The position numbers and the translations under genes were made by a program. Of a DNA stretch of 64,000 nt, positions 22,967 to 60,156 are shown piece by piece. The stretch's first letter is position 1. The number at the start of each line of letters is the position of its first letter. This stretch comes from Hymenobacter busanensis (GTDB taxonomy: Bacteria; Bacteroidota; Bacteroidia; Cytophagales; Hymenobacteraceae): NCBI RefSeq assembly GCF_008727865.1, contig NZ_VTWU01000003.1, positions 1-64,000 of the forward strand, in the 5' to 3' direction. The notes beneath the pieces were generated by a model. That model had not been told where the DNA came from, made no database searches, and was given only the letters and a program-made list of their open reading frames with translations.

Positions 22967-23063
22967 CGTCATGCAAAGCGTGAGCGAAGCATCTCGCGTG
23001 TTTGGCCCGATAGTAAATTCAACATCAGCACGCGAGATGCTTCGCCTGCGGCTCTGCATGACG
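22967..23063. repeat. Palindromic intergenic repeat, copy 1
   Basis: Begins CGTCATGC and ends GCATGACG; inner arms AAGCATCTCGCG and CGCGAGATGCTTCG, with a central unpaired part containing GATAGTAAA. Two more copies occur at 46219-46323 and 50911-51007 in the same orientation. Size, ends and intergenic placing suggest a REP- or MITE-like element. It lies between the GH3 start and the lptB stop. Confidence 0.85.
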
Positions 23064-45500: not shown

Positions 45501-46133
45501 CTAACGCAAAAAGTTACTAATTTCCTGCGCAAACGACAGCGCTGTTTCGGGTAACACGATGAGCGTGAGGACGATGCCGTAGAGGGCACCGTAGAGGTGG
45601 GCATCGTGGTTGATGCCGTCGGCGGCGATGCGGCGGGACTGGTAGTAGGTATAGGCCAGGTAAACGAAGGCCCAGATGAAGCCGGGGATGGGAATGGGCA
45701 GGGGAAAGACAATCATCTTGGCGGTGGGCTCGAAGAGGATGCTGGCGAAGATGACGGACGAGACGCCGCCCGAGGCACCGAGGCTGCGGTAGTCGGGGTC
45801 GTGGCGGTGCTTGAAGTAAGTGGGAACGTCGGAGAGGACGATACCGCCGAGGTAGAGCAGCAGGAACAGCAGCAGGCCCGTGGTGGGCCCGAAGGCATCG
45901 GCGAAATAGTAGCGGGCGGGGCGGCTCAGCGAGTAAAACGCGAGCATATTGAAAGCCAGGTGCGAGATGTCGGCGTGGAGGAAGCCGGAGGTGAGGAAGC
46001 GGTGCCATTCGTTACGCTTGCGCACGAGGTAGGGCGACATGACCCAGCTTTCGGTGAGGCTGGGGTTGGACCAGGCGTAGACGGAAGCAGCGCAGGTTAC
46101 GCCGATAAGGATGAGGACGGCATCGATATGCAT
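45501..46133 (-). CDS. Rhomboid-family intramembrane serine protease
   Basis: 210 residues with about six helices. Catalytic serine in LGASGGVSSVIF and histidine in NHDAHLYGALYGIV, with the conserved RFLTSGFLHADISHLAFNML before them. Cleaves single-pass membrane proteins within the membrane. Short relative to GlpG; no extra domain. Lies before the repeat at 46219-46323. Confidence 0.9.
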   Translation of the reverse strand: MHIDAVLILIGVTCAASVYAWSNPSLTESWVMSPYLVRKRNEWHRFLTSGFLHADISHLAFNMLAFYSLSRPARYYFADAFGPTTGLLLFLLLYLGGIVLSDVPTYFKHRHDPDYRSLGASGGVSSVIFASILFEPTAKMIVFPLPIPIPGFIWAFVYLAYTYYQSRRIAADGINHDAHLYGALYGIVLTLIVLPETALSFAQEISNFLR

Positions 46134-46458
46134 GAGGGCGAGGGAGGGGCTGAACGGGGGCTCAGCGGTGAAGGGAAGAAGGAGCGGGTAAAGCCGATGG
46201 GGAAAGGGGCAGAAAGGGCGTCATGCAGAGGCGCAGCCGAAGCATCTCGCTTGTTTGGGCGGATAGTAAAGTCAGTACCTGTCGTCAGCACGCGAGATGC
46301 TTCGGCTACGCCTCTGCATGACGTTCTAGAGGAGCGGTAGAGATGCTTCGCTTACGCTCTGCATGACGGGCTGGGGAAGCGGTAAAAATGCTTGGCTACG
46401 CCGACCTTCGGTTCGACTGTACTCAGCATCATAGGCTATTCAGCCTATATGAACACGG
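46134..46458. other. Intergenic region with palindromic repeat
   Basis: Holds repeat copy 2 (46219-46323) and two degraded right-arm-like fragments at about 46334-46367 and 46379-46432. No gene or clear promoter box was seen. Confidence 0.6.
46219..46323. repeat. Palindromic intergenic repeat, copy 2
   Basis: Same termini (CGTCATGC...GCATGACG), arms AGCATCTCGC and GCGAGATGCTTCGGC, and central GATAGTAAA as copies at 22967 and 50911. The unpaired centre is longer by about 8 bases. A right-arm-only fragment follows at 46334-46367. Confidence 0.85.
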
Positions 46459-47436
46459 CTAACTCTCGCGCTCCATGAGCTGCAGAGCGAGGCCGCGGAG
46501 GAGAGCTTTGCGGGCGGTGGGAGCGGCTTGGACGGCGTCGAGGTGGTAGAGGGCGTCCTGGAAGTACTCGTTGATGAGGGCTTCGGTGCGGGTACGGATT
46601 TGTAGCTCGTCGTATACGGCCGTAATGGCCTGCACCTTGGCTTCAGCGGTTTCGGGGGTGTTCAGCCCTAGCCAATGGTGTAGCGTGGCTTTCTGGGCCT
46701 CGTTTGCGCCTTCCAGCGCGGTGAGGAGCAGGTAGGTCTTCTTGCCCGACACAATGTCGCCGCCGACGCGCTTGCCGAAGGTGGCCGCGTCGCCGTAGAC
46801 GTCGAGGAGGTCGTCGCGCAGCTGGAAAGCCAGGCCAATGTCGGTGCCGAAGCGGCGGAGGTGGTCGGCATCGTCGGGGGAAGCGCCGCCGAGGCGGGCG
46901 CCCAGCTCCAGGGCGAAGCCGAGGAGGACGGCCGTTTTCAGGCGAATCATGTCGAGGTACTGCGGGATGCTCACGTGGGCTTCGGTTTCGAAGTTCATGT
47001 CGAGCTGCTGGCCTTCGCAGACTTCGGCGGCGGTTTGGCTGAAGCGCTGGAGCAACTCGCGCAGCAACGCGGGCTCAATGTCGAAGAGCAGCTCGTAGGC
47101 GCGCACCACCATCACGTCGCCCGAAAGGATGGCCACGTTGGGGTTCCACTGGACGTGCACCGTGGGCTGGCCGCGGCGCAGCGGGGCCTGGTCCATGATG
47201 TCGTCGTGGAGCAGGGTGAAGTTGTGGAAGACTTCGACGGCCAGGGCGGGCTTCAGGGCCACCTGCCAGTCGTCGGTGAAGAGGTGGGCGCCGAGCAGGG
47301 TGAGCAGCGGGCGGATGCGCTTGCCGCCCATGCTCATGCTGTAGCGGATGGGCTCGTAGAGTTCCTGGGGGGTTTCGCCGTAGCGCAGGTCGGCCAGGGC
47401 AGCGGAGAGGGCAGCAGAGAAATCGGAAAGATCCAC
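46459..47436 (-). CDS. Polyprenyl synthetase (isoprenyl diphosphate synthase)
   Basis: 325 residues. Elongates isoprenyl diphosphates for quinones or undecaprenol-type lipids. First aspartate-rich motif LLHDDIMDQAPLRRG, second QLRDDLLDVYGD, and GGKRIRPLLTLLGAHL. I use the GTG at 47436 ((M)DLSDFSAAL), because homologues start near LYEPIRYSMSMGGKR; a TTG at 47466 would fall inside the TACCTTGC promoter-like box (47463-47470). Chain length is not predictable by eye. Could supply pcrB. Confidence 0.9.
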   Translation of the reverse strand: MDLSDFSAALSAALADLRYGETPQELYEPIRYSMSMGGKRIRPLLTLLGAHLFTDDWQVALKPALAVEVFHNFTLLHDDIMDQAPLRRGQPTVHVQWNPNVAILSGDVMVVRAYELLFDIEPALLRELLQRFSQTAAEVCEGQQLDMNFETEAHVSIPQYLDMIRLKTAVLLGFALELGARLGGASPDDADHLRRFGTDIGLAFQLRDDLLDVYGDAATFGKRVGGDIVSGKKTYLLLTALEGANEAQKATLHHWLGLNTPETAEAKVQAITAVYDELQIRTRTEALINEYFQDALYHLDAVQAAPTARKALLRGLALQLMERES

Positions 47437-47506
47437 GGAGGAAGGCGGCGAGAATGTGGGGTGCAAGGTACGGAGGCGCGGCGCAGGCTGGGGGTTGCGC
47501 AGGCGG

Positions 47507-47800
47507 TTATGGAGCTAAACACGAAAGGGGCGTTTTAGGCTTGGAGAAATTGTGACCGGAGCTGGAACGACTGAAACCATGCCCGGAACGGGTGCGGTTG
47601 GTGCCGGAAGCATGAGTGCCGAACCCGGAACGACCGAAACCATACCTGGAACTGTTGGGACCGGACCCGGAACGACTGCGCCCGGTGCCGGAGCGGCCGG
47701 GACCATAGCCGGAACGCCCGCGGCCGGTGCCGGAGCGGCCGGGACCAGTGCCGGAGTCGTTGGGACTGGTGCCGGGGATTTGGGAGCAAAAACGGCGCAT
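47507..47800 (-). repeat. Tandem GC-rich repeat with a possible Arg/Gly/Ser reading frame
   Basis: A block of imperfect repeats of about 15-21 bases (unit around CCGGAACG/CCGGAGCGGCC). One 24-bp segment is repeated exactly at 47682-47705 and 47724-47747. Several frames are open; the minus-strand frame reads GTGPGRSGTGRGRSGYGPGR-like, resembling the basic, Gly-rich C-terminus of RNase R just upstream in the transcript, but in a different frame and after a terminator. It could be a small protein (97 residues from the ATG at 47800) or only a repeat. Confidence 0.45.
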
Positions 47801-47811
47801 GTTGGAACGCG

Positions 47812-47848
47812 AAACCGCCCCGCCGGCACGGGGCTGGCGGGGCGGTTT
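47812..47848 (-). terminator. Terminator of RNase R gene
   Basis: AAACCGCCCCGCC / GGCGGGGCGGTTT stem (13 bp) with an 11-base loop, 66 bases beyond the stop at 47914. Followed by TTCGCG on the transcript, without a long U-run. Confidence 0.75.
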
Positions 47849-47913
47849 TGTCTTGAAGCAGGGGGGTCTGGGCGGGCGTCAGCAACGACGGAACCACGCC
47901 AGTGGCAAGTTGG

Positions 47914-50517
47914 CTAGCGGTGGAAGCCGCTGCGGCCGCCTTTCTTGCCGCCGCCGGATTTACCGCCCGACTTGCCGCCGGGGCGGCCGGAGCCGTCGCC
48001 ACTGCGGCTGCTGCCGCCACGCGGGCCGCGGTCGTCGCGGGAGCGGCCGGCGTAGCCGTCGGATTTGGCGCGACCCTCGCGGCGCTGGTTGCTGCCGCGG
48101 CCTTCGGTTACCAGCTCCAGGTCGATGGTGCGGTCGAGCAGGTTGGCGGCTTTGATGATGACCTCCACCTTGTCGCCGAAGCGGATGATGCGGCCGGTAT
48201 TGCGGCCGATGACGCGCAGGTTCTCCTTGTCCAGCTCGAAGAAGTCCTCCGGAATGTCGGCCAGGCGGGCCATGCCTTCGCTCTTGGTTTCGCCCATCTC
48301 CACGTACATGCCCCACTCGGTGAGGCCCGACACGACGCCGGTGAACTTCTCGCCCACGTGCTCGGCCATGAACTCGACCTGCTTGTACTTGATGCTGGCG
48401 CGCTCGGCCTGAGCAGCCCGCTTCTCGCGCTCCGAGGAGTGCTTGCAGTCGGCTTCCAGCTCGTCCACGTCGGCGCTTTTGCCGCCGTGCAGGTAGTGCT
48501 CCAGCAGGCGGTGGGCCATCATGTCGGGGTAGCGGCGGATGGGCGAGGTGAAGTGCGAGTAGTGGTCGAAGGCGAGGCCAAAGTGGCCCAGCGGCTCGGT
48601 AGTGTAAATGGCCTTCGACATGGAACGCACGGCCAGGGCCTGAATGACGGACTGCTCGGGCTTGCCCTCTACCTCGGCGGTGAGCTGGTTGAGTTGCTTG
48701 CTGATGTCGGAGCCTTCGGCGAAGTTGAGCGAGTGGCCGAACTGGCGGGCAAACTGGGCGAAGTTTTCGAGGCGGTCGGGGTCGGGCGCGTCGTGGGTGC
48801 GGTACACCATCGTGAGGCGCGGCTTGCGGGGCTTGAGGCGGAACACGTAGTCGGCCACCTTGCGGTTGGCCAGCAGCATGAACTCCTCGATGAGCTTGTG
48901 GGCGTCTTTGCGCTCCTTGATGAACACGCCCACCGGCTTGCCTTCCTCGTCGAGCTTGAACTTGACCTCGGGCGCCTCGAAGCTGATGGCGCCCTTGCGG
49001 AAGCGTTCGGCCTGCAGCTTTTTGGCAATGCGGTTGAGCAGGTTGATGTCGTCGGCGTAGTCGCCCTCGCCCGACTCGATGCGCTCCTGGGCCTCTTCGT
49101 AGGTGAAGCGGCGGTCGGAGTGAATGACGGTGCGGCCAAACCAGGAGTCGTAGAGCTTGCCTTTCTCGTCCAATTCAAACACGGCCGAGAAGGTGAGCTT
49201 GTCCTCGTGGGGGCGCAGCGAGCAAAGCCCGTTGGAGAGGCGCTCGGGCAGCATCGGAATGGTGCGGTCGACGAGGTACACCGAGGTAGCGCGGTGCTTG
49301 GCTTCCTTCTCCAGGCGCGTGCCGGGCAGCACGTAGTGCGTCACGTCGGCAATGTGCACCCCGATTTCGTAGTGGCCGTTGTCGAGCGTGCGCAACGACA
49401 GGGCATCGTCGAAGTCCTTCGCGTCGACGGGGTCGATGGTGAAGGTGGTGACGGGGCGGAAGTCGCGGCGCTTGGCAATTTCGGCAGGGCTGATGCTGGC
49501 CGGAATGGCGTCGGCTTCCTTCTCCACTTCCTCGGGAAACTCGAAGGGCAGGCCGTACTCGGCCATGATGGCGTTGATTTCGGCCTCGTGGCCACCGGCG
49601 GGGCCGAAGGTGCGCACCACTTCGCCCACGGGCTGGCGGCCGGCCTCGGTGGGCCACTCGGTAATCTTCACCACCACTTTGTCGCCGTTCTGAGCCTCGC
49701 CCAGCGCGTGGGGCGGCACAAACACATCGAAGTAAAGCTTCTTGTAGTCGGGCTGCACAAAGCCAAAGCCGGCCTGCATCTGAATGCGGCCCACGACTTC
49801 CTCCTTCACGCGCTCGAGTACTTCCACCACGTCGCCGGTAGGCTTCCCGTCACGGTTCTGACCGATGCGCACCTTCACCGTGTCGCCGTCCATGGCAAAA
49901 GCCAGACGGTCGGTAAACACGCGCAGGTCCTCGGGCAGCTCGTCGCTCACGATGAAGGCGAACTTGGTGTTGGCCAGGTCCACGGTGCCGGTAATGTAGT
50001 TGCTGCCTTGCTCGCGGTGCTCACGCAGGCTGCCGGGGCGGCGGTTGCGCTCGGGCCCGGGGCCGGGCATGTCGAAGCCGGCCGAGCGGCGGCGGTGCAC
50101 GATGGGGTCGTGGGGCTGCTGCTCGGTGAGGTTTTCGAGGGGACGGCGGTTGCGGGGCTGGTAGCCAGCAGCCGGGGCCTCGCTCCCACCGTCGGCGGGC
50201 TGGTCCTGGGCGGGGCGCTGGGTGGCGTCGGTACGGCCGGGAATTTCCACCAAGCGGTAATCGTCGTTTTGGAGCAGGGCCACGTGGCCGCTTTTCTTGA
50301 GGCTCTTGAGCACGTCGAACAGGCTTTCGCGCTGCTCTTTGTCGACCACGCCGAGGCGGCGGGCGAGCTGGCGGTAGTTGAACACCTTGCCGGGGTTGTC
50401 GGCGAAGATGCGGAAGACGAGGGTCTTGTTGATGACGGCCGACGGGGCGGCTTGGTCACGGCGGCGGGCCGGGTCGCGCTGCGGGCGCGGGGCATCCGAG
50501 TTGTTGTTTCTCTTCAT
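47914..50517 (-). CDS. rnr: Ribonuclease R
   Basis: 867 residues. 3'-5' exoribonuclease. N-terminal basic tail and HTH-like region (residues ~20-80), cold-shock domains, RNB catalytic domain with the metal-binding aspartates in DPVDAKDFDDALSL and YVLPGTRLEKEA, and an S1 domain (FTGVVSGLTEWGMYVEM). The C-terminus is rich in Arg, Gly, Ser and Lys (GGSSRSGDGSGRPGGKSGG). Start ATG at 50517 gives MKRNNNSDAPRPQ; earlier in-frame codons lack family features. Confidence 0.95.
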   Translation of the reverse strand: MKRNNNSDAPRPQRDPARRRDQAAPSAVINKTLVFRIFADNPGKVFNYRQLARRLGVVDKEQRESLFDVLKSLKKSGHVALLQNDDYRLVEIPGRTDATQRPAQDQPADGGSEAPAAGYQPRNRRPLENLTEQQPHDPIVHRRRSAGFDMPGPGPERNRRPGSLREHREQGSNYITGTVDLANTKFAFIVSDELPEDLRVFTDRLAFAMDGDTVKVRIGQNRDGKPTGDVVEVLERVKEEVVGRIQMQAGFGFVQPDYKKLYFDVFVPPHALGEAQNGDKVVVKITEWPTEAGRQPVGEVVRTFGPAGGHEAEINAIMAEYGLPFEFPEEVEKEADAIPASISPAEIAKRRDFRPVTTFTIDPVDAKDFDDALSLRTLDNGHYEIGVHIADVTHYVLPGTRLEKEAKHRATSVYLVDRTIPMLPERLSNGLCSLRPHEDKLTFSAVFELDEKGKLYDSWFGRTVIHSDRRFTYEEAQERIESGEGDYADDINLLNRIAKKLQAERFRKGAISFEAPEVKFKLDEEGKPVGVFIKERKDAHKLIEEFMLLANRKVADYVFRLKPRKPRLTMVYRTHDAPDPDRLENFAQFARQFGHSLNFAEGSDISKQLNQLTAEVEGKPEQSVIQALAVRSMSKAIYTTEPLGHFGLAFDHYSHFTSPIRRYPDMMAHRLLEHYLHGGKSADVDELEADCKHSSEREKRAAQAERASIKYKQVEFMAEHVGEKFTGVVSGLTEWGMYVEMGETKSEGMARLADIPEDFFELDKENLRVIGRNTGRIIRFGDKVEVIIKAANLLDRTIDLELVTEGRGSNQRREGRAKSDGYAGRSRDDRGPRGGSSRSGDGSGRPGGKSGGKSGGGKKGGRSGFHR

Positions 50518-50910
50518 GTTGAAAAGGGTCGCCGCCGGGCTGCGTTGGGTATTTCTGACGGGCGGCGAGTTAGCGGAAAAAAGCAGGCCAATGCGCACCG
50601 CGTTTCGGGCGGGCCTGCAGGGTGAATATGGACGCCGGCGCATTTTGGTTGCGCCCGACGAGGGGAAAGTGGTCTAGTGTTCGAAACCCGACCGACTTAA
50701 GTTGTGCGAAAGATCAGAACTTCTGAATACTTCACGGAAAGTTGACGTGCTGCGGGTGGCAGGTGGGCAGCACGTCTGGCAAGCAGCGGGTTTTTAGCCG
50801 CTATACGCTACGCACGAGGTTTGGGGCGTGGCGGAAATGGTTTGGAAGTGGTGATACGCTTAAAAGGGCTGAAATGACGTGCGCGAATAATTACCGGGTT
50901 GAATAAAGAC
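50518..50910. other. Intergenic region upstream of RNase R, no gene seen
   Basis: No coding frame stands out and no perfect TAnnTTTG box was found on the minus strand. It must hold the rnr promoter, but I cannot place it. Confidence 0.35.
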
Positions 50911-51007
50911 CGTCATGCAGAGCGTAAGCGAAGCATCTCGCGTGTTTAGTCAGATAGTAAAATCACTCATCAGCACGCGAGATGCTTCGCTTACGCTCTG
51001 CATGACG
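50911..51007. repeat. Palindromic intergenic repeat, copy 3
   Basis: Starts CGTCATGCAGAGCGTAAGCG and ends CGCTTACGCTCTGCATGACG: the outer 20 bases are perfectly complementary. Inner arms AAGCATCTCGCG / CGCGAGATGCTT and central GATAGTAAA as in the other two copies. A degraded half copy follows (about 51015-51056). The most symmetric copy of the three. Confidence 0.9.
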
Positions 51008-51065
51008 TTCACACGAAGCGGTAGAGATGTTTCGACTGCGCTCAGCATGACGGGCTGCTATCCAC

Positions 51066-53054
51066 TTACACCAACTCCCTACGCGCAACGGCGGCCCGGA
51101 TGTCGGCGGGCTCGTCTTTGGGAATGGCGGCCAGCAGACGCTGGGTGTACTCGTGCTGCGGGTTGGCGTAGACCTCGGCGGCCGGGCCCTGCTCCACGAT
51201 TTGGCCCGCGTTCATCACCAGCAGCCGGTCGCTCATGAAGCGGGCTACCGACAAGTCGTGGGTGATGAAAAGGTAGGTGATGCCGAAGTCGCGCTTGAGG
51301 TCGTTGAGCAGGTTGAGCACCTGCGCCTGCACCGATACATCCAGCGCCGAGACGGATTCGTCGCAGATGATGCATTTCGGCTGCAAGGCCAAAGCGCGGG
51401 CAATGCAGATGCGCTGGCGCTGGCCGCCGCTGAACTCATGCGGGTAGCGCAGGTAGTGTTCCTCTTTCAGGCCCACGGTGCGCAGCAGCTCCAGCACGCG
51501 GTCTTTTTGCTGCCGGCCGTTGCCGCCCACGTTGTGCACGCGCATCGGCTCCAATATTGCTTCGCCCACGGTCATCATCGGGTTCAGAGCCGCGTACGGG
51601 TCCTGAAAAACCATCTGAAAATCCCGGCGACGACGACGCAGCTCCCCGGTTGGCAGCCTGGCCCAGTCATCCCCATCGAACAGAATGCTGCCCGAAGTTG
51701 GTTCCACCAGCCGCAGCAGCGTGCGGCCCAGCGTAGTCTTGCCGCAGCCCGATTCGCCCACCAACCCCACAGTTTCGCCGCGGTTGATATCGAAGCTCAC
51801 GCCATCGACGGCCCGCACGACCTCGGTAGCGCGGCCGAAGAAGCCCTTGCGGATGGGGAAGTGCACGTGCAGGTTCTGCACGCTCAGCAGCAGCTCGCCG
51901 GTGGAGGCGTGGTACGGGGCGGTGTGCGTTCCGTCTACTGGTACGTCGGCCGCAGCGGCTTCGGCGGGCGCAGCGGCTACCGGCGAGGTGGCAGCATTGG
52001 GTACGGGCTGTCCAGTTTCAAGTAGCGGGGCGGTTTCGAAGCCAATTAAAGCATCGGCCGAGTGTGGAACATCGGCATGTTCCACGGGAAACAATTTGGC
52101 GGTGTCAGGTTCGTTTTTAGGAGCAGCGCCCTTCAGGGCAGCATCTTCGTTTGCAGGACTTTGCAGCGAAACCGCCTCGGTGCTGAAAAAGCCTCCGGTG
52201 GCGTCTTCGCGCATGAAGTCGGCCACCGTGGGCAATCTTTTTTTACCAACCGACAATTTTGGGCGGCACGCCAGCAGGCCCTTCGTGTACGGGTGCTGGG
52301 GGTTGGTGAAGATGTCGAGCACGCGGCCCTGCTCCACCACTTTGCCGCGGTACATGACCAGAATGCGGTCTGCAATTTCGGCCACCACACCCAGGTCGTG
52401 GGTGATGAAGAGGACTGCCGTGTTGCGCTGCCGGCGCAAGTCGTCGATGAGCTGCAGGATGCGGGCCTGCACCGTTACGTCGAGGGCGGTGGTGGGCTCG
52501 TCGGCAATGAGGATGGCGGGCTGGCAGGCCATGGCCATGGCAATCATCACGCGCTGCTTCTGCCCGCCGCTGATTTCGTGCGGGTAGGCCTTGAAGATTT
52601 TCTCGGGCCGCGGCAGCTGGGCTTCGGTAAACAGCTCAATGGTGCGGGCCGCGGCTTCCTGCTTGCTTAGCGTGGTGTGCAGCCGCAGGGCCTCCACCAC
52701 TTGCGCCCCGCAGGTGTGCACGGGGTTCAGCGAAGTCATCGGCTCCTGAAAAATCATCGAAATTTCGTTGCCGCGCACCTTTTGCAGCTCTTTCTCCGAC
52801 AGCCGGAGCAAATCCACCTCGCCGCCCAGCGCCTCCGACTGAAACCGTGCCTCTCCCCCACTCAACTGGCCGGGCGGCATCGGAATCAGCCCCAGCAGCG
52901 CCAGCGACGTCACCGACTTGCCTGAGCCCGATTCGCCCACAATGGCCACTGTTTCGCCCGCGCTGAGCTGAAACGACACGTTTTCGACCGCGCGGGTATT
53001 GCCGCGGTGCGAAGCGAAGTCGATGGTCAGGTTGCGGACGTCTAAAAGGGCCAC
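51066..53054 (-). CDS. Fused OppD-OppF-type peptide ABC transporter ATPase
   Basis: 662 residues from the GTG at 53054. Two complete ABC domains. First: Walker [21 protein letters not shown], Walker [13 protein letters not shown]. Second: [30 protein letters not shown]. They are joined by an Ala/Pro-rich linker of about 130 residues. Opp/Dpp ATPases energise uptake of di- and oligopeptides or nickel; the permease and binding-protein genes are not nearby. The longer frame from 53171 begins over the promoter region, so I prefer GTG. The linker encodes the parS-like site at 52078-52093. Confidence 0.88.
52078..52093. promoter_or_regulatory. parS-like sequence inside the ABC ATPase gene
   Basis: TGTTCCACGGGAAACA, one base different from the perfect parS at 42587-42602 (T to G in the centre). 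It codes for LFPVEHA-type residues in the linker between the two ABC domains, where sequence is free to vary. Could be a second, weaker ParB site. Confidence 0.5.
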
Positions 53055-57684: not shown

Positions 57685-60156
57685 TTAACTCAACTCGTTG
57701 GTGGGCGGCAGCTGAGCGGCGGGCAAGGAAGCGCCCGGCTTCACCTGAATGCGGTTCAGGTTCAGCTCGAGGTCGTCGTCTTCCTCGTGGTACTGCTCGT
57801 CGTAGTGCTGTATCAGGGCGCTGTCGATGGTTTCGTCCTTGCCGTGCTCGAAGGTGACGAGCAGGGCCGGCAGCAGAATCAGGTTCGAGAAGTTGGTAAT
57901 CAGCAGCGACGCCGACATGAGCAGACCCAGCGCCTTGGTGCCGCCGAATTCGGAGAAGGCGAAGATGCTGAAGCCCACGAACAGCACGATGCTGGTGTAA
58001 ATCATGCTGGTGCCGGCTTCCGAAAGCGTGGTCGATATAGCGGCCTTCACGCGGCGGCCGTTGGCGGCCATTTCCTGCCGGAACTTAGCCAGCAGGTGAA
58101 TGGAGTTGTCCCCATCAATGCCCAGCGCAATGCAGAAAATCAGGGCCGTGGCGGGCTTCAGGGCAATGCCGAAGAAGCCCATGATGCCGGCCGTGAGCAG
58201 CAAGGTCACGAAGTTCGGCAGCAGGGTGAAGAACACCGAGCGAATGGAGCGGAACAGAATCAACACGATCAGGCCGACCAGTGCAAAGGCCAGCACCAGG
58301 CTTTCCTTCAAGGTGCCGATGACGTACTCGTTGCCCTTGGTGAAGAGGATGGTGGTACCGGTCATTTTCACCTCCATGCCCGTGCCGGTGAAGATTTCAT
58401 TGATCTGCGGCTGGATTTTGGTGATGAGCAGGGTATCGAGGTTGCGCGAGCCGATGTCGGCAATCTTGAGCGAAATGCGGGCTTTCTGACCGGTAGAGTC
58501 GGTGAAGGAGCGCAACAGCTTGCTGTCCATGCTGGCCGATTTGCCTTGCGCGCTTTGCGAGCGGGCCAGATAGCTCAGAATGAAGTTGCGCTCGGAGTTA
58601 TCGGGCAGGCGGTAGTAGCTCGGGTCGCCGTTGTAGAAGGTCTGGGTGGCCGCTTTCAGGAACGTGACGATGCTGATGGGCGAGGTGAGGACCGGCTGGG
58701 TGCGCAGGTAGTTTTCCAGCCGGTCGATGCGCTCCAGGTTCTTAAGCTTGAGAATACCGCGCTTCTTGCCCGTGTCTACCACGATTTCCAGCGGCATTAC
58801 CCCGTTGAAGTGCTCCTCAAAGAACTTCAGGTCAGAATTGACGGAGGAATTTTTGGGCAGATCATCGACCATGTACGACACCGATTGCAGCTTGCTGGCC
58901 CCCAGCGCGCCTAGGGCGCAGAGCACCAGCGCAATGCCGTAGACCGTGCCGCGGCGCTCCAGCACGAGGTAGTCGAAGAACTCCAGCAACTTGGTTAGCG
59001 GCTTGGCGTCGAGGTGCTCCAGTTGCTTGGGCGTGGGCGGCGGCAGGTAGGTGAAGACTATCGGGACGAGGATAATCGAGATGAAAAACGCCGCGAAAAT
59101 GCTGATGGTGGCCACCCAGCCGAACTGGTAGAGAATGGCAATGTTGGTGAAACAGAACACGAAGAAGCCAATGGCCGTCGAGGTGTTGTTCATCAGGGTT
59201 ACCAGCCCGATTTTGCGCACCACCCGCACCATGGCCAGCACCTGGTTGCCCGAAATGCGGTAATCATAGTGGTAGCGGGAGAGCAGGTAGGTACAGTTCG
59301 GAATGCCGATAACGATGAGAATACTCGGAATCAGGCCCGTAAGCAGGGTGATTTTGTAGCCCAGCAGCACGATGGTGCCCACGCACCAGATGACGGCCAC
59401 GCCCACAATGAGCAGCGGAAATACCACCGCCGACCACGTGCGGAAAAACACCAGCAGCGTGACGCTGGTCACCAGGGCGGCCAGCATCAGGAAGAATTTC
59501 ATTTCGCCCGCCACCTTGGTTGTCATGGTAGAGCGCACGTAGGGCAGGCCGGCGTAGTGCAGGCGGATGTTGGTTTTCTTGGTAAACCGCTCGGCGTGGC
59601 CCAGCACTTCCTTCATCACGGCCTGCCGCTTCGAGGAATTCAGGTACTTCGGGTCCATGGTGAGGGCCAGCAGCGTGGCCCCGGTGGTGGGGCTGATGAG
59701 CTGGCCCTTGTAGAACTCCTGCCGGTTCACGATGCGCATGAGCGAATCGAGTTCCTGCTGGGTTTGCGGAAAGGTGTGGAAGATGGGCGCGGTGGCAAAG
59801 CGCTGGTTGGCGGTGTCCTTGGTGAGCTGGATGAGCTTGGTAACCGACAGCACCCCGCTCACGCCTTCCACCTTGCTCAGGGTATCGGTAAGCAGGCGCA
59901 GCTCGTTGAAGTTGCCGAGCTTGTAGACCGAGCTGTCCTGCAGGCCGAGCACGAGCACGTTGCCGTCTTCGCCGAAGGTCTTTTTGAACTGCTGGAAGTA
60001 CACCATGTCCGGGTCGTCGGGCGACACCACCTGGGCAAAATCGTAGGTCATTTCCACGTCCTTGGCCTTCCAGGCCATAAACGCGGTGATGATGGCCAAG
60101 AGCCCAACGAGCAGGCGGCGGTTTTTGATAATCAGCAGGGCGAGCTTACTCCACAT
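57685..60156 (-). CDS. RND/MMPL-family transporter (sterol-sensing-domain-like)
   Basis: 823 residues, twelve helices in two halves with large periplasmic loops after TM1 and TM7. N-terminus MWSKLALLIIKNRRLLVG; VSPDDPDMVYFQQFKKTFGEDGNVLVLGL is the first loop. Repeated helix clusters contain ILIVIGIPNCTYLLSRYHYD and IFCIALGIDGDNSIHLLAKFR (the RND proton-relay region). Family members move lipids, hopanoids or heavy metals; substrate unknown. Acidic C-terminus (QYHEEDDDLELN). ATG at 60156 follows a perfect promoter box. Confidence 0.88.
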   Translation of the reverse strand: MWSKLALLIIKNRRLLVGLLAIITAFMAWKAKDVEMTYDFAQVVSPDDPDMVYFQQFKKTFGEDGNVLVLGLQDSSVYKLGNFNELRLLTDTLSKVEGVSGVLSVTKLIQLTKDTANQRFATAPIFHTFPQTQQELDSLMRIVNRQEFYKGQLISPTTGATLLALTMDPKYLNSSKRQAVMKEVLGHAERFTKKTNIRLHYAGLPYVRSTMTTKVAGEMKFFLMLAALVTSVTLLVFFRTWSAVVFPLLIVGVAVIWCVGTIVLLGYKITLLTGLIPSILIVIGIPNCTYLLSRYHYDYRISGNQVLAMVRVVRKIGLVTLMNNTSTAIGFFVFCFTNIAILYQFGWVATISIFAAFFISIILVPIVFTYLPPPTPKQLEHLDAKPLTKLLEFFDYLVLERRGTVYGIALVLCALGALGASKLQSVSYMVDDLPKNSSVNSDLKFFEEHFNGVMPLEIVVDTGKKRGILKLKNLERIDRLENYLRTQPVLTSPISIVTFLKAATQTFYNGDPSYYRLPDNSERNFILSYLARSQSAQGKSASMDSKLLRSFTDSTGQKARISLKIADIGSRNLDTLLITKIQPQINEIFTGTGMEVKMTGTTILFTKGNEYVIGTLKESLVLAFALVGLIVLILFRSIRSVFFTLLPNFVTLLLTAGIMGFFGIALKPATALIFCIALGIDGDNSIHLLAKFRQEMAANGRRVKAAISTTLSEAGTSMIYTSIVLFVGFSIFAFSEFGGTKALGLLMSASLLITNFSNLILLPALLVTFEHGKDETIDSALIQHYDEQYHEEDDDLELNLNRIQVKPGASLPAAQLPPTNELS

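Follow-up and report, generated by a model that had tools for sequence, protein, structure and literature searches.

Palindromic repeats in the window

The window, a stretch of 64,000 nucleotides of Hymenobacter busanensis (contig NZ_VTWU01000003.1, positions 1 to 64,000), carries three intergenic palindromes of about 100 bp, which the original prediction had joined into one family. Their coordinates, arms, centre and termini were all confirmed (Table 1). Each is a dimer of two short REP-type units, which carry their CGTC tags outward and are inverted about a core of approximately 30–45 nt. Read from the tag, the unit in the window has the form CGTC-ATGCnGA-loop-GA(A/G)GCAT-CTC (n and A variable); a GA/GA interruption splits the stem, after which comes CTC. 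In the best copy, the arms at 50908–50944 and 50974–51010 are 37 nt long and 97% complementary, and this copy ranked first among the best 25 of the 151 inverted repeats in the window. The arm word GAGATGCTTCG occurred seven times in the window, compared with 0.03 expected occurrences, and a combined arm and core pattern was matched four times genome-wide, three of them inside the window, with no match of the reversed control pattern. The worn core of the own genome comprises GATAGTAAA and some remnants; sister species have a palindromic core of the GATAGTAATTCTCTCGTTGAACGAGGAGGTTACTATC type.

Two single CGTC units and one interrupted unit, absent from the original prediction, were also found beside the dimers. 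The 20-nt insert GGCTACGCCGACCTTCGGTT of the interrupted unit recurred at L156, L207, L210, L231, L251, L261, L263, L266, and other loci. Inserts of this kind were present at 27 distinct places (450 loci; up to two mismatches to a loose consensus), 25 of them preceded by TT, and 21 were flagged in REP units (9 CGTC and 12 GTAG). The insert looks like a tiny repeat inserted into the tips of REP units of both classes.

Table 1. Coordinates of the CGTC-tagged elements in the window
Feature	Position	Strand	Remark
Best copy: CGTC-tagged REP dimer made of unit, core, and inverted unit	50911..51007	+	hairpin z −13.6 as DNA
Left unit of best copy, CGTC-ATGCAGA-GCGTAAGC-GAAGCAT-CTC	50911..50939	+	
Spacer separating the paired arms of best copy, contains GATAGTAAA	50945..50973	+	
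Right unit of best copy, inverted	50979..51007	-	
Single CGTC unit adjoining best-copy dimer	51024..51052	-	
Second dimer	22967..23063	+	site without unit in 7/7 congeners
Third dimer	46219..46323	+	site without unit in 7/7 congeners
Single CGTC unit adjoining third dimer	46340..46368	-	
Degraded CGTC unit (by eye), interrupted by 20-nt insert at 46394-46413	about 46386-46430	-	

Copy number and distribution

A BLASTN search of the own genome (G000, 4.89 Mb, with the window at C5:1-64000) with the best copy, the check proposed in the original prediction, revealed a genome-wide family with at least 87 two-strand matches at no fewer than about 40 places. These figures were obtained by scoring 40 of 66 first-look candidates, and more copies are possible. 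Among the fetched stretches, 31 inverted unit pairs were parsed, and 29 distinct dimers were retained after two composite stretches had been left out. Single CGTC units also occurred besides the dimers.

Of 58 genomes searched, all eight of the same genus (own genome included) and all six of one other genus of the family gave matches at E ≤ 1e-6, and none of the 44 other relatives did so at this threshold. The largest number of first-look candidates among the 14 element-carrying genomes, 197, was found in G011. A pattern scan of named genomes gave at least 119 stretches; among the 80 listed, 79 were from Hymenobacter and one was from a Hymenobacteraceae MAG. Plasmid matches were confined to three records, all of Hymenobacter volaticus. 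These palindromes belong to a small and probably mobile DNA repeat of Hymenobacter-type bacteria. In the literature search, Hymenobacter was not found together with REP, REPIN, or palindromic-repeat terms, and it is unmentioned in the available text of RepRanger 2025 (PMC12306157).

Folding and ends of the elements

Stems were analyzed in 67 CGTC dimers, of which 44 (88 units) could be parsed and 23 remained unparsed. All three variable stem pairs were kept in 74 of the 88 units; the AT at the start of the stem is largely a result of how units were selected. The stem types included GTC/GAC, GCT/AGC, and TCC/GGA, which were found 43, 15, and 14 times, respectively, these counts being sequences and not independent events. 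The arms differed in stem type in half of the dimers (22/44), and 34 of the 44 units in these dimers still kept all three pairs. Since the stems covary even in dimers with unlike arms, the palindrome of the unit itself is kept, beyond the pairing of one arm with the other. The tip of the CGTC strand was C-GNA-G in 59 of the 88 units, and GNA loops are very stable in DNA.

A lone unit of the best copy folded no better than shuffled sequences (z of +0.57 as DNA and −0.88 as RNA, + strand); the whole dimer gave z of −13.6 and −14.8, respectively, with an RNA fold of −72.3 kcal/mol. On the + strand, the DNA hairpin z values of the three window dimers were −13.6, −7.7, and −9.7.

Base preferences were also seen outside the tags. 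Among 128 CGTC arms of the relatives, position −3 was G in 117 and position −4 was A in 90, and positions −2 and −1 were variable; the first tag position was C in 121 arms, the remaining tag being fixed by the search. Typical ends are therefore AGNN-CGTC ... GACG-NNCT. G at −3 was present on both ends in 49 of 59 dimers, and AG on both ends in 26 of 59. RAYT transposases were reported to cut their REP substrates at CT (CA is a second site for one of them), with the CT site proposed to be selected, or guided, by the AG within GTAG (parts of PMC8266576). The AG..CT at a fixed distance outside the CGTC tags resembles this cleavage signal, a likeness that is suggestive only. The elements do have inverted ends. 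The flanks gave no support to the proposal that they are MITEs, in the sense of target-duplicating DDE elements: in many copies, the dinucleotide outside the tag is not the same at both ends, and the common AG..CT is present in inverted orientation rather than as a duplicate.

Occupancy of orthologous sites

The original prediction had suggested a search for empty sites. The gene beside each window copy was present in all seven congeners searched, and 330–480 bases beside this neighbor gene were read. No unit was found at the 22967 and 46219 sites in any of the seven; the comparison at 22967 was anchored on one neighbor gene, the left neighbor possibly not being the same in all species. At the 50911 site, no unit was found in G002, G004, G005, and G007, whereas G003 carried a CGTC dimer whose arms differ and whose core contains an additional unit, G001 carried a GTAG-type dimer, and G006 carried two single CGTC units. 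One pattern match each in L269, L271, and L282 was disregarded as chance.

Collinear segments, which were 87–92% identical, contained more differences of this kind, one example being G003, with 146 nt including a CGTC element where G001 has 23 nt. The intergenic flanks failed to align and are too diverged, so that the insertion boundaries are approximate only. The copies thus behave as insertions that are present at different sites in different species, and insertion is the simplest reading because one spot holds different elements in different species. These observations, together with the REP-type units, their arrangement as inverted dimers, and their genome-wide copies, support the earlier suggestion that the repeats are REP elements and mobile.

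At about 3186360–3186600 of G004:C1 (L290, L292), one GTAG dimer apparently sits within the core of a second one, an arrangement that whole-unit insertion of dimers would produce.

A core common to CGTC and GTAG dimers

When the 14 element-carrying genomes were searched for the full core palindrome GATAGTA..TACTATC, 38 places were found, all of them in the seven congeners G001–G007; the own genome and the other genus had no match. With the reversed control, the congeners were free of matches, and single places turned up in G016 and in G028. A search with longer gaps gave additional places and a few control matches. Among 91 distinct GATAGTA..ACTATC cores, 67 lay by CGTC arms (63 of them on both sides), 20 by GTAGCGCG (GTAG) arms, four by neither arm class, and none by both. 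GTAG dimers with a similar core were located on both sides of a RAYT gene in G005, one copy being degenerate, and on one side of a RAYT gene in G004.

The resemblance extends to the core interiors, which lie outside the selection pattern. The comparison of 52 CGTC with 20 GTAG interiors gave a mean of 9.31, and 20 shuffled sets gave a mean of 7.13 with a maximum of 7.40. Spacers picked by their arms alone behaved similarly: 83 distinct CGTC spacers from other Hymenobacter genomes gave 11.86 versus 10.22 against the GTAG cores (shuffle maximum, 10.53). The signal resides in 51 spacers with a length of at least 31 nt (13.24 versus 11.02; shuffle maximum, 11.43), and it was marginal for the 32 shorter ones (9.66; shuffle maximum, 9.53). 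The 29 spacers of the own genome gave 11.93 versus 10.33 (maximum, 10.86). The CGTC core thus resembles, beyond shuffles, the spacer of GTAG dimers, some of which flank a RAYT gene, and this finding seems to be new: a spacer common to the CGTC and GTAG superfamilies is not mentioned in the available text of Di Nocera et al. (2013, PMC3733652). We read the resemblance as common descent of the two kinds of spacer; other routes may be possible for short palindromes.

The presence of the core in two repeat classes could have another reason, namely that it is a binding site for a chromosomal protein. In Escherichia coli, REP/BIME sites are bound by nucleoid proteins, and the core of the sister species is palindromic and present in both classes, as would be expected of such a site. 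However, the core is very variable in length and sequence, both from copy to copy and from species to species, and the other species do not retain the three window sites, which makes this explanation very improbable. The variation of the core was read in part from 81 dimers of the at least 119 named-genome stretches, dimers close to a locus end having been omitted.

A GATAGTA..TACTATC palindrome without REP arms was observed at L217 (G003:C12:195930); it was absent from the matching stretch of G001.

Search for a linked transposase

The original prediction had proposed a check for a RAYT gene, and the search covered Y1 transposase genes. The own genome has two such genes, each surrounded by other repeats; the second protein scored 71.7 bits, under the NCBIfam cut-off of 80. 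No CGTC unit adjoined any of 22 PF01797 loci from two genera (own genome included), for 12 of which flanking repeats were listed. At the 30 loci scanned of 35 belonging to the RAYT family NF047646, CGTC units adjoined the gene only at L171; single units lay more than 1 kb from the gene at L165 and L127/L170, and matches at L137 and L143 (L168 and L169 in the RAYT-family scan) were disregarded as chance. In G020 and G032, elements were present with no RAYT-family match at E ≤ 0.001, and one PF01797 match in G032 was below the cut-off and had an internal stop. Linkage of CGTC dimers to RAYT genes was accordingly not supported, the only case among the scanned loci being the one-sided L171.

Two loci merit description. 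At L171 (G028:C13:16017-16613), several CGTC units follow just downstream of a RAYT-like gene, on one side only. At L006 (G000:C6, about 59086–59610), a RAYT gene of the own genome lies approximately 1.7 kb from a CGTC dimer (C6:57330-57430) and has 57-nt inverted repeats of a different type on its flanks.

A RAYT-like protein family keeps the HUH motif plus a tyrosine aligned with that of RAYTs, which we take to be the catalytic tyrosine. Scores above 200 bits for this family were obtained in G001–G007, G016, G024, and G028; the 44 relatives without elements reached 77 bits at most. It was not found in G000, G020, and G032, and G011 gave only a distant match (115 bits); all four genomes carry elements. 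The 350 nt on each side of seven RAYT-like genes yielded two simple hairpins but nothing resembling a REP pair in a scan for perfect 9-nt hairpin arms, which is so coarse that it missed the CGTC units of L171. The distribution at the genus level is suggestive, and we do not claim the family as the missing enzyme because it was not found in these four of the 14 element-carrying genomes. Its members may act in trans on the elements, or the family may have no connection with them.

The own-genome copies look old, because no full GATAGTA..TACTATC core and no member of the RAYT-like family were found there. The CGTC dimers might even be immobile relics that were spread by a now-extinct transposase, present differences between species reflecting loss and decay and the similar spacer reflecting a common origin with GTAG dimers instead of a common enzyme today. 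This is consistent with the failure to find a linked transposase, with the lack of any full-pattern core in the own genome, and with the statement, in the part of PMC3733652 concerned, that CGTC REPtrons may have vanished early. The full-pattern cores of G001–G007 and the different elements borne by one site in different species argue against relics, and we regard the explanation as doubtful.

Gene context and RNA

According to our own ORF calls, 21 of the 29 own-genome dimers lie between co-directional genes, six between convergent genes, and two between divergent genes. The 3′ end of a gene was present on at least one side of 27 dimers, a figure given without an intergenic base rate. Among the dimers between co-directional genes, 10 had a core with at most one mismatch to GATAGTAAA; six of these cores ran with the genes and four against them, the three window copies being among the latter. 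The corresponding numbers were two and four with no mismatch and eight and nine with up to two mismatches. The common orientation claimed for the three window copies therefore holds for these but not genome-wide, and core orientation, in this small sample of 10 dimers, gave no support for a strand-specific role of the RNA.

A search of positions 45900–51300 against Rfam gave nothing above the gathering score. Six sub-threshold matches had E ≤ 1, the best being AaHKsRNA41 (E of 1.1e-6; 39.8 bits versus a gathering score of 97), and all were taken for an effect of the long hairpin.

A transcribed hairpin may affect mRNA ends, and the palindromes could have been kept as structures that protect or end mRNAs, as in the earlier proposal of a 3′-end RNA structure. 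The nearness to gene 3′ ends, which stands for 27 of the 29 dimers, and the highly stable fold of the best copy as RNA agree with this proposal. It is weakened by the lack of a clear orientation bias and of an Rfam match above the gathering score in 45900–51300, and a conserved RNA function is unlikely to be the primary reason for the palindromes because the three window sites are not common to the congeners. We therefore consider transcript 3′-end hairpins an unlikely explanation.

Discussion

The window elements are a family of CGTC-tagged REP dimers, which work like REPINs without the linked RAYT of the latter, and the CGTC-tagged REP dimer is the closest known kind. CGTC-tagged REPs were reported without a linked or dedicated transposase (Di Nocera et al. 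2013, PMC3733652), with a stem of 8–9 bp beginning with AT, a loop of 4–5 nt, and a tail that is mostly CCA. As far as that description is available, our elements agree with it in the outer CGTC tag, the head-to-head dimers, the conserved spacers, the intergenic location, and the absence of a linked transposase (for Y1 genes, L171 excepted). Their stem also starts with AT, largely as a result of how units were selected. They differ from it in the tail, which is CTC instead of CCA (typical but not stated to be universal), in the stem broken by GA/GA, and in the core similar to that of GTAG dimers. Hymenobacter is absent from the main text of that article.

REPINs, in the parts of Bertels and Rainey (2011, PMC3116915) relevant here, likewise consist of two inverted REPs and a spacer that can form a long hairpin, and the dimer is a putative insertion unit in both; however, a REPIN has a cognate RAYT gene with the same REP on its flanks, and no such link was found here. 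The GTAG RAYT REPtrons (parts of PMC8266576 and PMC6006769) have the same AG/CT at the foot, and the GTAG dimers of the sister species, some by RAYT genes, share a similar core, whereas the window elements are tagged CGTC and have no adjoining RAYT.

We favor, with slightly better than even confidence, the explanation that the repeat is a small non-autonomous mobile CGTC dimer moved by a Y1/HUH transposase, probably a RAYT-type enzyme, whose gene lies at another locus. The dimer would fold while its site is in single-stranded form, such as on the lagging strand; the transposase would recognize the folded units, cut at the outer CT, and paste the dimer into another intergenic spot. We regard a RAYT-type enzyme as probable because RAYT-linked GTAG dimers in sister species carry a similar spacer. 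The suggestion that the elements are moved by a RAYT is not supported as regards gene linkage and retains an indirect link through this spacer.

The results suggest, without proving, that one Y1 (HUH) machinery moves the CGTC and GTAG classes in trans. A more specific version, in which the GTAG-linked RAYT or the RAYT-like family moves the CGTC REPs and the similar core and the AG..CT foot are the parts recognized, is tentative and less likely than not. Against the favored explanation stand the lack of CGTC units adjoining the scanned RAYTs except at one side of L171, the lack of a RAYT-family match at E ≤ 0.001 in G020 and G032, and the failure to find the RAYT-like family in four of 14 genomes, including the candidate-rich G011. 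AG on both ends in less than half of the dimers, the weak fold of the lone unit, the marginal resemblance of spacers shorter than 31 nt to GTAG cores, and the approximate insertion boundaries also count against it.

The original description of CGTC-type REPs (PMC3733652, in the available part) did not settle how they spread. Their spacer likeness to RAYT-linked GTAG dimers makes this question testable with purified enzymes and oligonucleotides, and the genus Hymenobacter allows sites with the element to be compared with sites without it.
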